34,858 nt of DNA from Bacillota bacterium (lineage in GTDB: Bacteria; Bacillota; UBA4882; UBA10575). Below are positions 22,622-28,577 of this stretch, one piece after another. The translations under genes and the position numbers were made by a program. Every line of letters starts with the position of its first letter. Within the stretch, counting starts at the first letter, position 1. The DNA lies in NCBI GenBank assembly GCA_012839115.1, contig DUNX01000013.1, positions 1 to 34,858 on the forward strand, written 5' to 3'. The notes beneath the pieces were generated by a model. That model was not told the origin of the DNA. It saw only the letters and a list, made by a program, of their open reading frames with translations, and did no database searches.

Positions 22622-22972
22622 CCGTCAGCATCTCCCTTTTGGCTGTGAGTTTTGCGCCGGGTGTTGGCGCGAACCCGATGAGAATAGTATAAATAAATTT
22701 TTCCCTAAAGACAAGAGGAATGTTGAGTGGTATGCGTTTTCTTTCTTTGCACACATCAACTACAAAGCAGTATTTTTGCAAAATCAGCATGCCGGACTTA
22801 AGAGCATATAGCAATAACCATAAATGTTAGTAATTTTCAGAGAATAGATAGGTATAAATAGGAGTTTCCGGAAAAATGTCGAAATTAAACAAAAACAGAC
22901 GGCTACTTAATTATGGAAATGTTTTCTGACCAGTCCCACCAGGGTTCAATAATGGAGAAGGAGTGGAAAATT
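22622..22972. other. Divergent gap between purC and the CsgG-like gene
   Basis: The gap is 351 bases. It holds the purC promoter and leader on the left. On the right is an AT-rich stretch with TATAAA near 22852, a plausible -10 box for the CsgG-like operon but with no good -35. A 20-codon in-frame extension of the CsgG-like gene (from 22913) was rejected. Confidence 0.45.
22686..22714 (-). promoter_or_regulatory. Promoter of purC
   Basis: On the minus strand, TTGTCT (22709-22714), a 17-base spacer and TATACT (22686-22691). The leader to the ATG is about 60 bases and contains a GCGCC/GGCGC inverted repeat. Confidence 0.6.
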
Positions 22973-24262
22973 GTGCGGAAAACTGTTTTTGTCTTGATCA
23001 TATGTGGTCTGCTTCTCTTCCAGGCAGAGGCGGTTTTTGCCCGGGAACGTGTTAGTGTCTTAGGGTTTAGCGGTGCGGTTCAAGAGGAATACATACAGAC
23101 TGCTATCAATAAACTCACTGCCCTTCTTATGAAAATTGACCGTTTCGAAGTAGTGGAACGGGTGGAGATTGACCGTATTTTGGAGGAACAATACCTTCAA
23201 CTAACTGGCCTGGTCGCGGAGGACCAAGCAGTCGAAGTCGGCAAGATCCTCGGCGTAAACTTGGCGTTTATTGGCAGTATTAACCGGCTGGCGGCATCCT
23301 GGGATCTTGAGAGCAAAAAATTCAGGGCGGTAGCCGGAATAACTATTAAGGTTATTCATGTTGAAAGCGGGAAGATCCTCCAAATCATGGAAGAAGAGGG
23401 GAGCGGGAGCGACCGGAATTACCGGAATTCATTGCATAAAGCTGTTGAATCATCCTTTGGATCGAGTTTGGCTTATAAAATCCGGGAGATGTTTACCATC
23501 TATAGTGAAGTCTTTAAAGTTGATAACGGGACCATTTATTTCCTTGATGGCTCGCGAGAAGGGGTAAAAAAAGGTATGCGTTATTATATCCTGCGCCCGG
23601 AAGAATTGGAGTTGTATGATTGGGAAATGGGGCAGGAATTTGCCTTTAAAAAACGTTTGGGAATGATAGAGGTCGTCGATGTGCTTGAGAATCTCTCAAA
23701 AGCAAAAATTATCTGGGTTAAGGAGACGGTAAAACCCGGCGATATTCTTGAAGAGATCGTCCGGACCAGAAGGGCTTATTTAAAAGTGGCGCCGCGGGTT
23801 ACCGGTTATGAATTTGTAGGCGAGAGTAAGAAAGGGACCATCACAAACTGGGAGTTTTCTTTTGGCAGTGAACTCCCGTTTCACAGCGGTGTGGAGGTGG
23901 TCTTTGGCGGCGCTCTTTTCGAAGAAATCGGTAAATTTGATTTAGGCATAGGATACAACCGGGAAATAAAAATAACGCCCGGAAAACTATACCTTACTTG
24001 CACTTTTGATGCAGGGTTTTCCGTAGCATCTCAAGCAGAGGCCTGGTCTTACGGGTTCTTCATTGAAGGTGGTGGCGGGCTTAAGTATTATTTCAATTAT
24101 GGCAACGGTATACGGTTGGAACTGGGCGCTACCGGACAATACGGGCCTGTCTTCAAGCAATGGTTTGACGAAAATGACCTGGATGTAACAGATCATATGC
24201 CCCACAGTCATCTTGGTTTTTCCAGATTCGGGGTATGGTTGGGGCTGGTTGTTCCATTGTAA
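22973..24262 (+). CDS. CsgG-like exported protein with a beta-rich C-terminal region
   Basis: A 429-residue exported protein. Residues 1-23 are a signal peptide ending VFA. Residues 26-173 match the CsgG-type domain: RVSVLGFSG, FEVVERVEIDRILEEQ (58-73), LTGLVAEDQAVEVGKILGV and AFIGSIN. A small beta domain follows (about 178-260). Residues 265-429 are rich in alternating polar/hydrophobic strands, glycines and aromatics (GFFIEGGGGLKYYF, LELGATGQYG), as in outer-membrane beta-barrels, although the last residue is Leu rather than Phe. There is no lipobox, unlike CsgG itself. GTG at 22973 has AGGAG 9 bases upstream. It heads a four-gene cluster. Confidence 0.75.
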   Translation: MRKTVFVLIICGLLLFQAEAVFARERVSVLGFSGAVQEEYIQTAINKLTALLMKIDRFEVVERVEIDRILEEQYLQLTGLVAEDQAVEVGKILGVNLAFIGSINRLAASWDLESKKFRAVAGITIKVIHVESGKILQIMEEEGSGSDRNYRNSLHKAVESSFGSSLAYKIREMFTIYSEVFKVDNGTIYFLDGSREGVKKGMRYYILRPEELELYDWEMGQEFAFKKRLGMIEVVDVLENLSKAKIIWVKETVKPGDILEEIVRTRRAYLKVAPRVTGYEFVGESKKGTITNWEFSFGSELPFHSGVEVVFGGALFEEIGKFDLGIGYNREIKITPGKLYLTCTFDAGFSVASQAEAWSYGFFIEGGGGLKYYFNYGNGIRLELGATGQYGPVFKQWFDENDLDVTDHMPHSHLGFSRFGVWLGLVVPL

Positions 24263-24306
24263 TACGCTAAGACAAATTTTATCACAACCGGAATGAGGGT
24301 GGAAAA

Positions 24307-25467
24307 TTGGAGAGAAATATTAAAAAGACTGTATTTGTTGTTTTTACTATCCTTCTTTTCCTTCTTCAGCTACCGGTTTTGGCCGTAGAGGAAGAAGTAG
24401 TGATTGAGGTGGAAGGGTTTGCCGTGGTGAAAGAGGGAAACCTTGCCCGCGCCCGTGAGTTGGCGGTTAGCGACGGCCTCCGTTCAGCAGTTGAACAAGT
24501 GGTGGGACTACTGGTTGACAGCAGAACCCGGGTGCGCAACTACGAACTGATTGAAGACTCGATTTTAATCCGTTCCACGGGTTATGTTACCGGTTATGAA
24601 ATCCTCTCCACCCGGTTGGTAGGGGGGACCCTTGGGGTACAACTCCGGGTACGGGTCCGCCGGGAGGAACTGGTCCGTGATCTTGACCATCTTCAGCTAA
24701 TCTTATCCCGGGCCAATGATCCCCGGATTATGGTGGTTATTCCTGAGAAACATCTCCGGCGGTCTGTACCTGACCCGGCGGCGGAAACGGAGATTATTCG
24801 CCGTCTGGTGGACGCCGGATTTCGCCTTGTCGATCAGACACAAGTGGCAAAGGTACGCGAGAGTGAGATGTTGCGGCTGGCCGTAGCCGGTGACGAAGAA
24901 GCCCGGCGTCGCCTGGCCGCCGAATATGACGCAGAGATCCTAGTGACCGGTGAGGCCTTCAGCGAATTTGTCGGTAATTTTCGCGGTTTAATCTCCTGCC
25001 GGGCCCGGGTGGAGGTCCGTGTGCTCAGGGCTGATACCGGTGAAATTTTAACCGCCTACGCTGTTCATGAGAGCGGCGTTGATATCAGCGAAGCCGCTGC
25101 CGGGAAAAAAGCCTTGACCAAAGCCGGAAGCAGTATCGCCGATTACCTGGTGGAGGCAATTCCATCGCAACTTGTTGAGAGTCGCCGCAGTATCCAGATT
25201 TTCGTCAGTAACCTTACCTTCTCCGACCTGTTGGTTCTTGAGCGTAATCTAAAAGAAACCCCGATGGTCGAGAATGTTTTTATCCGGGATTTTACCAGCG
25301 GCAACGCACGGTTGGATGTGGAAACGCCGCTCCTGCCTGTTCAGTTGGGTGAAGAGATGACTTGTTGGCCGGAATTGCCCCTCGAAGTTACCGGTATTTC
25401 CGGAGCTAAGATTGAATTTGAGAAAAAAAACTTTGCCGGGGAAGATATTAAGGAGGTAGCAGAATGA
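24307..25467 (+). CDS. FlgT-like exported protein
   Basis: A 386-residue exported protein with a signal peptide (1-26, ending VLA). Residues 30-125 resemble the N-terminal domain of FlgT/LPP20-type proteins: NLARARELAVSDGLRSAVEQVVG, NYELIEDSILIRSTGYVTGYE, then a beta hairpin. Residues 138-260 resemble a TolB/CsgG-like alpha/beta domain (MVVIPEKHL, then YDAEILVTGEAF). The rest is an unassigned C-terminal domain. FlgT helps build the flagellar outer-membrane ring in Vibrio, but no flagellar gene is near, so another envelope role is as likely. TTG at 24307 follows GAGGGTGG, and the GTGGAAAATTG start context resembles that of the upstream gene. Confidence 0.7.
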   Translation: MERNIKKTVFVVFTILLFLLQLPVLAVEEEVVIEVEGFAVVKEGNLARARELAVSDGLRSAVEQVVGLLVDSRTRVRNYELIEDSILIRSTGYVTGYEILSTRLVGGTLGVQLRVRVRREELVRDLDHLQLILSRANDPRIMVVIPEKHLRRSVPDPAAETEIIRRLVDAGFRLVDQTQVAKVRESEMLRLAVAGDEEARRRLAAEYDAEILVTGEAFSEFVGNFRGLISCRARVEVRVLRADTGEILTAYAVHESGVDISEAAAGKKALTKAGSSIADYLVEAIPSQLVESRRSIQIFVSNLTFSDLLVLERNLKETPMVENVFIRDFTSGNARLDVETPLLPVQLGEEMTCWPELPLEVTGISGAKIEFEKKNFAGEDIKEVAE

Positions 25468-26336
25468 TGAGAAAGAAAAAGAACCGGATCCATTTGGCGC
25501 TATTTTGTAGTCTTTTCCTTCTTTTTACCGCCAGCGTCATCAGCAGTACCGCGGTAATTGAAGAAGTTGGCGTTGGAGAGATCCATTGGGAAACTGGTGT
25601 TATCCGGGTAGTGGGTTACGGTGCGGCGCCAAAAGGGATCCCTGGCGCCATCGGCAGATTGCTGGCACAGAGGGCTGCTAAAGCCGATGCCTACCGCAAT
25701 GCCCTGGAAGTAATTGAAGGGGTTAGGGTCCGTAGTGAAACATTGGTTGAAAACTTCACGGTGGTCAGCGATGAAATCCGCTTGAGTATGCAAGGGTTCA
25801 TCAAGGGAGGCCACTTTGAGCAGGTTAGTTTCGACATGGAGAACACCTGTGAAATTATACTGGTGCTTCCTTTAGGAGGACAAAAAGGACTCAGTTCATT
25901 GCTCCTCAATACCGTGCAGCAACTGCCATCCCTGGGAACGGCTCCACCGGTGGAAATTTTGCCAGGACCTGTCGAAACCGCCAGGAAAAAGTATACAGGG
26001 ATTGTTATTGATACCAGAGGACTTGATGTAAAACCTGCTCTTTACCCCCAAGTCTTTGATGCCAAAGGTTACCTTTTATACGGTCCAACCATGGTCAGTG
26101 TGGACCGGACTGATTTTTCAACCATGGTGGCGTATTCGCGCTCTCTTGAGAAAGGGCTGGCTATGCCGCGGGTGGCGGGAAATCCATTGTTGATTAAGGC
26201 GGTCGACACTGTTAAGAGTAGCGACGGTGAGGCCACTGACATTGTTCTGAACAGCGAAGCAGCCGCTCTTTTCCGTCAGGCTACTGCTGAAAACGACCTG
26301 CTGGCCAAGGCGGCTGTGGTTTTCATTATCGACTGA
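25464..26336 (+). CDS. LPP20-like exported protein
   Basis: A 290-residue protein with an N-terminal signal or anchor segment (residues 9-30, no lipobox). Residues 36-140 match the LPP20-type pattern: IHWETGVIRVVGYGAAP, then AQRAAKADAYRNALEVIEGVRV and a short LVLPLGG strand. Residues 175-290 match a second domain often found behind it: YTGIVIDTRGLDVKPALYPQVFDAKG, then PLLIKAVDT and VVFIID. Function unknown; relatives occur mainly in bacteria with an outer membrane. The ATG overlaps the upstream stop (ATGA) and has AAGGAGG 8 bases before it, so translation is coupled. Confidence 0.75.
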   Translation: MMRKKKNRIHLALFCSLFLLFTASVISSTAVIEEVGVGEIHWETGVIRVVGYGAAPKGIPGAIGRLLAQRAAKADAYRNALEVIEGVRVRSETLVENFTVVSDEIRLSMQGFIKGGHFEQVSFDMENTCEIILVLPLGGQKGLSSLLLNTVQQLPSLGTAPPVEILPGPVETARKKYTGIVIDTRGLDVKPALYPQVFDAKGYLLYGPTMVSVDRTDFSTMVAYSRSLEKGLAMPRVAGNPLLIKAVDTVKSSDGEATDIVLNSEAAALFRQATAENDLLAKAAVVFIID

Positions 26337-26356
26337 TGAAAATTAATTATAGGGTA

Positions 26357-26368
26357 TCGCGCGCGCGA
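26357..26368. other. TCGCGCGCGCGA palindrome
   Basis: A 12-base palindrome of alternating C and G between the LPP20-like and TPR genes. It is one of three CG-alternating sites in the window, all in gaps between genes. Confidence 0.5.
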
Positions 26369-26418
26369 ATCATTTTACCTCTAATAAACGTAATAAACGA
26401 AAAGGAGTGAGGGGGACG

Positions 26419-27501
26419 ATGAGAAAAATAAAATTCCCGGTGGCTTTATTGTTGATCTTTTTTCTTTTGACCGCATCAATCCCTGTTGCGGCAGGGGAAA
26501 GAGGGTTTTCATCCGCAGGGGCTTCCGGGGATCGCAGTAGAGAAACCATCACTACTGTTGCTGTGGTGACCGTGGTGGTGGCTGTGGGTCTCCTTATCCG
26601 CTCTGCGGCCCGGAACAGCAAAGCAAAGGGGTTTTACAGGCAGGGAGAAGATTACGCTGCTCAAGGCCGGTGGGATCTGGCGGCCGATGCTTTTGCCGAA
26701 GCGGCAAAGATCAACCCCAAATACAGGGACGTTAAGAGTAAATTGGCCTATGCCAGGGAGCAAGCGGAAAAGATGTTGATCGCCTTGGGTGACGAGGCCA
26801 GGGAAAAAGAAAAACTGGAAGATGCTTTGCACTATTACCAAAAAGCCCTGAAATACCAGCCTGATTCTGTGTTGGCCCGTGCCCGGCTGGAGGATTTAGG
26901 CCGTCAGATGGTGGCCGTCTATTACCGGCGGGGACAGGTATATGAGACACAGAACAGGTGGGAGGAGGCGCTCCGTGAATATGAGCAGGCCTACCATATT
27001 GATCCCTACTATGAAGACCTTAGCGATCGCTATCTGCGGGCTAAAGTAAAAGTGGAAGGGGAACAAAGGCTTTTGGGTGTTTTGTATTTCCTGAACTACA
27101 GCGACTACCCCGGGCTAGAAGCCTTCCTTCTCCAAGCGGTCCATGCCGAATTGGCCGCTGCAGGCGCCCACCGTTACGTTGTGATTGACTACAGGCGGGT
27201 GCAAAGCATTATTGGCGAACAAGCGGAAGCCCTTGGCGAGCGGTTTGACGACAGTCTGGCCATGGATATGGGTCGCTTGTTGGGAGCCGATGCCGTACTG
27301 ACCGGGGAGATCCGGGCTGTATCGCAGCAGGGGAGGAGAATCCGGATCCAGGTGGCAGCGAAGATTCTTGCGGTCCCCGGAGCAAAAGTCCTGAAGGAAG
27401 TAGAGCTCAGCCACACTTTCTCCAGGAAAATGACGATGGACGACCTTCCGGAGGTCATGCCCGAAGTTGCGCAGGAGTTGGCAAAAAAAATCCTCCAGTG
27501 A
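26419..27501 (+). CDS. TPR protein with a C-terminal CsgG/TolB-like domain
   Basis: A 360-residue envelope protein. Residues 1-26 are a signal-like segment ending VAA, and a second hydrophobic helix lies at about 43-61, so it is probably held in the inner membrane. Three TPR-like repeats follow (GFYRQGEDYAAQGRWDLAADAFAEA from 71, EDALHYYQKALKYQPDS from 134, and YRRGQVYETQNRWEEALREYEQAYHIDP from 169). Residues 215-360 form a CsgG/TolB-like alpha/beta domain (YVVIDYRRVQSIIGEQ, GRLLGADAVLTGEI). ATG at 26419 has AAAGGAG 11 bases upstream. Its last codons contain the terminator of the opposing gene. Confidence 0.75.
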   Translation: MRKIKFPVALLLIFFLLTASIPVAAGERGFSSAGASGDRSRETITTVAVVTVVVAVGLLIRSAARNSKAKGFYRQGEDYAAQGRWDLAADAFAEAAKINPKYRDVKSKLAYAREQAEKMLIALGDEAREKEKLEDALHYYQKALKYQPDSVLARARLEDLGRQMVAVYYRRGQVYETQNRWEEALREYEQAYHIDPYYEDLSDRYLRAKVKVEGEQRLLGVLYFLNYSDYPGLEAFLLQAVHAELAAAGAHRYVVIDYRRVQSIIGEQAEALGERFDDSLAMDMGRLLGADAVLTGEIRAVSQQGRRIRIQVAAKILAVPGAKVLKEVELSHTFSRKMTMDDLPEVMPEVAQELAKKILQ

Positions 27502-27668: not shown

Positions 27669-28577
27669 CTATGCCTCTTCAATACTTAAAAGATACTGAT
27701 CGTCACCAGTTTCCTCTAATTCAATAATATACCTTGTGGCTTTCTTGCCCTTTCCTACTTTAAACTTCTTATTAATCGGGAAAAACATTGCCTTCTTTTT
27801 GTATTCAATCCGGACCATATCTTCGTCGGAGAATCTCCCGTCCAGATTCCAATCAACCACGCTTATAGGTACAGTCTTTTTCCTATCCAGTTTCTGCTCG
27901 CCGTAGAGATAGGTACGGTTGCCTATTTTAGCTGTGATGAACATATCGATCCGTTCATCTTCTACTTCAAGACCTGTGGCAACGCCCCTATCATCTTTTA
28001 CAGTTCTTACTACTACTGGAATACACTCGATTAAATAATCAATCTCCAGGATATACTCATTGTTCGAATACGGATCAAGAAAAGAGGCCAGACCGTAACC
28101 GCTGTGTTTCGTTCCGTCGTCGGTCCTGCTTCTCATGTTAACACGGTCCCGTCCGACACGGATCTTTTCTTCAAGTGCATTGATCCTGACTTCTTCCCCT
28201 TGTGAGTCATACACCTTTAAGTAGCTGAAGTTTTCCGGTGGAAGCTCGGCGAAATCAACCTGCAGTGTATAAGGTTCTTCACTAAGGAGAATCTCTTTGG
28301 TGAAGCTCAGCTTCGGGTATAACTCAAATGGATAGACATAATAACTGGTAAAGGCTCTTTTAACCGCACTGCTGAACTCCTCAGATATTGATTCCAAAAT
28401 AGAGTCGGTTCCCTTTTTCGGCCTTGGCTTATACGCATAGACTTCAAGGTAGGGAAGACCGTCGTCTTTTAGGGTCAATTTAACTTGTCCAGAGAGATCG
28501 TATGAACTCAAATCGGCACAGCCCGCTGTTCCCAGCAGGAAAAGAATGATTAACCCCAAACAAATCTTCTGCCGCAC
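27669..28577 (-). CDS. Lipoprotein with an EF-hand-like loop
   Basis: A 302-residue lipoprotein. The signal peptide ends LLGTAGC with C20 as the lipidation site; Thr at -3 is unusual but tolerated. The body is beta-rich and of no family I recognise. Near the C-terminus, DWNLDGRFSDED (242-253) has the calcium-ligand pattern of an EF-hand or dockerin loop (D242, N244, D246, D253), so calcium binding is plausible. GTG at 28577 has TTAGGAGG 8 bases upstream. It has its own promoter and converges on the four-gene envelope cluster. Confidence 0.82.
   Translation of the reverse strand: MRQKICLGLIILFLLGTAGCADLSSYDLSGQVKLTLKDDGLPYLEVYAYKPRPKKGTDSILESISEEFSSAVKRAFTSYYVYPFELYPKLSFTKEILLSEEPYTLQVDFAELPPENFSYLKVYDSQGEEVRINALEEKIRVGRDRVNMRSRTDDGTKHSGYGLASFLDPYSNNEYILEIDYLIECIPVVVRTVKDDRGVATGLEVEDERIDMFITAKIGNRTYLYGEQKLDRKKTVPISVVDWNLDGRFSDEDMVRIEYKKKAMFFPINKKFKVGKGKKATRYIIELEETGDDQYLLSIEEA

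Follow-up and report, generated by a model that had tools for sequence, protein, structure and literature searches.

A conserved envelope gene cluster of the FlgO/FlgP/FlgT–CsgG kind in outer-membrane-bearing Bacillota

The window studied here is a stretch of 34,858 nt of DNA from a Bacillota bacterium (contig DUNX01000013.1, assembly GCA_012839115.1), in which positions 22973–27501 are occupied by four plus-strand open reading frames (ORFs) encoding exported proteins with related domains. We conclude that these genes are a real, conserved and uncharacterised envelope cluster of the FlgO/FlgP/FlgT–CsgG kind. Proteins of the FlgO/FlgP/FlgT type, which form rings, have so far been met mostly as accessories of flagella. 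From sequence and structure comparisons we suggest, at what we would call even chances, that in diderm Bacillota the products of the cluster form a ring or brace in the periplasm that is independent of the flagellum, pinned to the outer membrane and made from parts of the Vibrio FlgO/FlgP/FlgT type. The genome is a 2.35 Mb bin that is 97% complete, and its named relatives are metagenome-assembled genomes (MAGs) of Bacillota, including a Hydrogenispora sp. A limited search of the open PMC literature found no published account of such a cluster, and an earlier description is possible.

All four genes are under purifying selection, with ratios of nonsynonymous to synonymous substitution rates (dN/dS) of 0.14–0.23 against a congener. 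Because of these values and the wide synteny of the genes, the cluster is not a chance set of ORFs. The survey of 398 genomes of the phylum was made with gene 3 only, and genes 1, 2 and 4 were traced through the gene 3 loci. All 12 genomes of the window family that hold gene 2 have genes 2-3-4 in one unbroken run (13 loci), and each of the nine families looked at has at least one member in which genes 2 and 3 adjoin each other. Gene 1 adjoins genes 2-3-4 in three genera, one of them the window genus, where three genomes have this arrangement. The original prediction for this DNA had described an exported four-gene plus-strand cluster of related domains, in agreement with the ORFs and export segments, and it was open to refutation by neighbourhoods in which the genes part company or by equal frequency in monoderm genomes; both checks turned out favourable to it. 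Distances for gene 2 and gene 3 are correlated (r=0.91 over 17 loci), for which vertical descent alone could be sufficient. One genome (G009) carries two copies of an extended gene 2-3-4-5-6 block on separate contigs (L034, L035). Both in family f53 of Bacillota and in bacteria outside that group (L125, L127, L064–L066, L069), an apparent asnS is found within a few kb of a gene 3-gene 2(-gene 1) block, a shared neighbourhood that could reflect either old linkage or transfer.

Gene 3 is linked to outer-membrane-bearing Bacillota. It was found in 37 of 102 Omp85-positive genomes and in 0 of 296 Omp85-negative genomes (P=4e-25, a value that overstates independence because the surveyed genomes share kinship), so that the diderm bias expected of an envelope complex is present. 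The 37 holders span 13 families; nine of them match only the C-terminal domain, which resembles part of the Treponema protein Tp0624, or a fragment, and all 28 fuller matches are Omp85-positive.

The absence of flagellar genes from the neighbourhood, noted in the original prediction, holds within the window, but the genome encodes FlgI, FlgH, FlgG and flagellin, and with them a flagellum that has L and P rings. Gene 3 shows no association with FlgI in the set of diderm genomes (34/3 versus 53/13, Fisher P=0.16), and three near-complete gene 3 holders lack FlgI. One of these (G277, a single contig), which carries the gene 1-2-3 trio, showed no FlgG, FlgF, FlgI, FlgH, FlgK, FlgL or FliW in 2.0 of 2.23 Mb searched, while control genes were found; its lack of FlgI also rests on a whole-genome search. 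The other two FlgI-less holders are close relatives of each other, have a gene 3 dN/dS of 0.08 and are grouped by the tree with relatives from their own family that do have flagella. Outside Bacillota, FliG is missing from eight gene 3 holders (one Smithella, three Bacteroidota and four other bacteria), seven of which have the gene 2-3 pair, the Smithella having gene 3 only. At the loci examined, most lineages have no flagellar genes near the cluster. Taken together, these observations support independence of the cluster from flagella, and in this respect the stand-alone complex proposed earlier stands.

The product of gene 3 (25464–26336, plus strand, 290 amino acids, ATG start) comprises a signal peptide, a FlgP-type SHS2 domain (about residues 47–140) with a ring-hairpin insert, and a C-terminal domain (about residues 165–290) corresponding to the central part of Tp0624. 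Taken alone, gene 3 has no Pfam match, LPP20 included, and a relative from UBA4881 scores 24.6 against LPP20, below the cut-off of 25.9. A make-up from CsgG, FlgT and LPP20-type parts, as the original prediction had it, is supported, with the correction that the closest matches of gene 3 are FlgP and the Tp0624-type domain; in Pfam, CsgG is over its cut-off and FlgT_N falls 1.6 bits short (see below). The gene 3 family profile (A9) matches PDB entry 9hmf, labelled 'Lipoprotein, putative', which we take to be Campylobacter jejuni FlgP, with an E-value of 3.4e-18 and an alignment that is gap-free through the hairpin insert; other FlgP chains lie at about 1e-9 (8z5n, 1.5e-9). In the FlgP family, ring formation accompanies the hairpin insert (PMC12222027). 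By profile comparison, gene 3 is thus closest to ring-forming FlgP, to which a Tp0624-type domain is added. Unlike the FlgP of the Campylobacter basal disk (9hmf, PMC12222027), it has this second domain and no lipobox.

The C-terminal domain matches residues 109–263 of the Treponema pallidum Tp0624 chain (5jir, PMC5104382) with a profile E-value of 5.9e-12, and in both proteins a further alpha/beta domain lies ahead of it; gene 3 differs in having no OmpA-like domain. The D1–D2 unit of Tp0624 has been found only inside the three-domain architecture of that protein (PMC5104382). In eight genomes (G089, G136, G169, G198, G246, G270, G357, G378) the Tp0624-type domain matched without the rest of gene 3, and the domain is therefore wider than the treponemal protein from which it was described.

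Gene 2 (24307–25467, plus strand, 386 amino acids, TTG start) overlaps gene 3 in the ATGA at 25464, the coupled start reported earlier, which is directly visible in the sequence. Its product has a signal peptide, a FlgT_N-type SHS2 domain (about residues 29–118), a CsgG/FlgT_M-like middle and a small C-terminal alpha/beta domain. The FlgT_N match (E=5.7e-6, 27.2 bits) is 1.6 bits below the Pfam cut-off of 28.8, which a UBA4881 relative passes at 36.4 bits. The gene 2 profile also matches C. jejuni FlgP (9hmf, 3.6e-6), and residues 29–216 match the Leptospira LipL46 family (NF033164) at 1.3e-11, with 43.9 bits, below the cut-off of 400; LipL46 differs in that gene 2 has no lipobox. The structural model of gene 2 has FlgT as its top Foldseek matches (8z5n, 1.6e-11; 3w1e, 2.5e-11), followed by CsgG. 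In one lineage (G183, L128:8662–10065) the homologue of gene 2 joins a FlgT_N-type domain to an apparent PQQ-type beta-propeller repeat region.

Gene 1 (22973–24262, plus strand, 429 amino acids) has a GTG start, with an in-frame ATG at 22952. A signal peptide is followed by a CsgG/FlgT_M-like domain (about residues 24–175), a FlgT_C-like domain (about residues 178–262) and a predicted eight-stranded outer-membrane barrel (23771–24256, plus strand, residues 267–428), with strands at residues 267–280, 287–301, 305–316, 319–335, 339–354, 357–373, 381–390 and 418–428. The CsgG match is over the Pfam cut-off (PF03783, E=7.7e-8, 32.3 versus 20.8 bits), whereas the FlgT_C cut-off of 27 is passed only by a relative (L120, 31.1). 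The AlphaFold2 model, with a mean predicted local distance difference test score (pLDDT) of 78.5 and mostly above 85 in the barrel block, has a CsgG-like domain followed by a small beta domain and, at the C terminus, eight strands. Its top PDB match in Foldseek is FlgT (3w1e, 5e-10), and PelC, GNA1162, NspA, LpoB and CsgG are also matched; the TM-score against NspA (1p4t) is 0.75 by target length. The model indicates that the membrane part is a self-contained eight-stranded barrel as in NspA and OmpA, which would serve as an anchor rather than as a CsgG-type pore.

The original prediction had assigned likeness to FlgT to a single gene; this applies to gene 2, but genes 1 and 2 are both most like FlgT. 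Since global TM-scores of the two models against FlgT are only 0.2–0.3, despite top Foldseek E-values of 5e-10 and 1.6e-11, we count this likeness domain by domain. The three FlgT domains do not occur together in one protein: FlgT_N and a CsgG-like middle are in gene 2, and a middle and a FlgT_C-like domain are in gene 1.

Gene 4 (26407–27501, plus strand, 364 amino acids, with an alternative ATG start at 26419) encodes a membrane-anchored protein with an N-terminal export segment, a second hydrophobic segment at residues 45–69 (26539–26613), TPR repeats and a CsgG/LpoB-like C-terminal domain. Pfam matches are to TPR_2 (2.2e-18) and, weakly at the C-terminal end, to LpoB (0.0057) and LptE (0.0031); in a relative (L114) the C-terminal domain matches CsgG at 1e-16. 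Both hydrophobic segments are kept in 14 of 14 relatives.

Like gene 4, each of the other three proteins has a hydrophobic export-type segment at its N terminus, and sequence inspection revealed no convincing lipobox in any of the four or in the gene 3 relatives. The start codons of genes 1–4 are consistent with ribosome-binding sites, and the gaps are 45 nt between genes 1 and 2 and about 70–80 nt between genes 3 and 4.

Among the closest known systems is the H-ring of Vibrio, with FlgO, FlgP and FlgT (PF17680, the LPP20 family and PF16548/16539/16538; structures 3w1e and 8z5n). The cluster shares with it FlgT_N, CsgG-like middle and FlgT_C-like domains and, in gene 3, a FlgP-type SHS2 domain with the ring insert; a FlgO domain is found in cluster relatives. 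Unlike the H-ring genes, the cluster splits the FlgT domains over two genes, adds an eight-stranded barrel and a TPR protein, has no lipoboxes, lies outside a flagellar operon and is kept in genomes without flagella.

In sister genera the four genes belong to a larger set, of which the arrangement in the window is one variant. Cluster-bearing genera other than the window genus carry an FlgO/CsgG-TPR protein of ∼880 amino acids, whose C terminus is barrel-like as judged by eye from the alignment, and a convergent gene for a TPR-SpoIID protein. In another family (G209), TPR-SpoIID is followed by an unassigned, lipoprotein-like protein of 694 amino acids and by a DUF5723 protein that resembles an outer-membrane protein (both within L114:11016–14349), after which come genes 4, 2 and 3 in that order.

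In the arrangement that we propose, the gene 3 product, together with that of gene 2, would form a polymeric ring or sheet beneath the outer membrane, to which the barrel of gene 1 would pin it. Gene 4 might connect this ring with the inner membrane or recruit partners. Gene 1 may be replaced or joined by the FlgO/CsgG-TPR-barrel protein in sister genera, where the TPR-SpoIID protein may trim or open peptidoglycan at the site of the ring. The likely job of such a structure would be to link or space outer membrane, wall and inner membrane, and not to export a polymer.

Several points weigh against this proposal. Ring formation by the gene 3 product is put forward from homology, and the hairpin region of gene 2 is modelled at low confidence. 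In gene 4, cleavage of the export segment would leave the second hydrophobic segment to hold the TPR/CsgG part on the cytoplasmic side, where it would suit a periplasmic scaffold badly. Gene 3 stands by itself in several f33 genomes and one f5 genome; as the former show, the cluster need not be complete. The window genus lacks the FlgO/CsgG-TPR-barrel protein and encodes its TPR-SpoIID copy elsewhere (L086), away from the cluster. Finally, FlgI is present in the window genome and in 34 of the 37 gene 3 holders, and in the G183 lineage genes 3-2 lie a few genes from flgM-flgN-flgK-flgL-fliW.

These last two facts, together with FlgH and flagellin in the host and homology to all three types of Vibrio H-ring protein, argue for a flagellar outer-membrane ring or disk, equivalent to the H-ring or basal disk and encoded apart from the main flagellar genes, with gene 3 acting as FlgP, genes 1 and 2 as FlgT and genes 4 and 5 as FlgO-like components. 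We give this, as a role in flagellated hosts, a low but real probability: the association with FlgI among diderms is absent, orthologues are strongly constrained in genomes that lack FlgI (for one of these the search extended to seven flagellar proteins), the gene 2-3 pair occurs in flagella-less bacteria of other phyla, and flagellar neighbours are lacking in most lineages. Because close versions persist in bacteria without a flagellum, a separate, non-flagellar ring or brace is probable.

The remaining alternatives concern the wall and export. Peptidoglycan might be cut or made locally at a platform to which the CsgG/LpoB-like and TPR parts bring a SpoIID-type enzyme or a synthase, the rings holding a gap in the wall open. 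LpoB-like profile and structural matches point in this direction, as does the TPR-SpoIID gene, which lies within the cluster of another family and stays beside gene 3 after the loss of genes 2, 4 and 5 (G010 and L059, the latter being G012). We nevertheless find such a platform rather improbable, considering that LpoB-like folds are common to many envelope proteins that activate no synthase, that no penicillin-binding protein gene is linked, and that the copy of TPR-SpoIID in the window genus is remote from the cluster. A CsgG-type pore exporting a fibre or polysaccharide, as in the curli or Pel systems, would account for the Pfam CsgG match of gene 1 and for PelC and CsgG among its structural matches, and the middle domains of genes 1 and 2 share the fold of the CsgG/PelC/LpoB/GNA1162 superfamily. 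Unlike the members of that superfamily, however, the cluster has no lipidation signal, and gene 1 has its own separate barrel in place of the one that CsgG subunits share; neither curli nor Pel partners were found among the proteins scanned, which were those of the window, and no conserved substrate gene adjoins the cluster. We consider an export pore very improbable, and the outer-membrane pore suggested in the original prediction is not upheld.

Two further features of the window were considered and set aside. Genes 1 and 2 have in common an 11-base start context, GTGGAAAATTG, whose similarity had been pointed out before; it is present in the window, but it is not conserved in two congeners and is therefore of little meaning, and we dropped it as a signal. 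The genes at 27669 and 28716 were rejected as cluster members, having no meaningful family match and, at the cluster loci examined, no relative beyond the window genus. The former (27669–28577) encodes a putative lipoprotein (lipobox LGTAGC), is convergent to the cluster, has a dN/dS of 0.18 within the window genus and matches no family. Elsewhere, a Bacteroidales MAG (L070:1853–7830) encodes an LPP20-like/FlgT_N-like pair, followed by a DUF4384 protein and an apparent caspase-like protein.

The outer-membrane links of diderm Bacillota are still being worked out, and the cluster, if our reading is true, is a candidate for a new trans-envelope structure in these bacteria. Through gene 3, the second domain of Tp0624 also becomes known from a large family that includes Bacillota. 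A broader possibility, which we hold tentatively and with some doubt, is that parts of the FlgO/FlgP/FlgT type constitute a non-flagellar outer-membrane ring machine in diderm Bacillota and some other phyla, which survives loss of the flagellum and from which flagellar rings were recruited (or the reverse). A cluster conserved in flagella-less bacteria with an outer membrane would, if true, point to an older envelope role of the FlgO/FlgP/FlgT parts.

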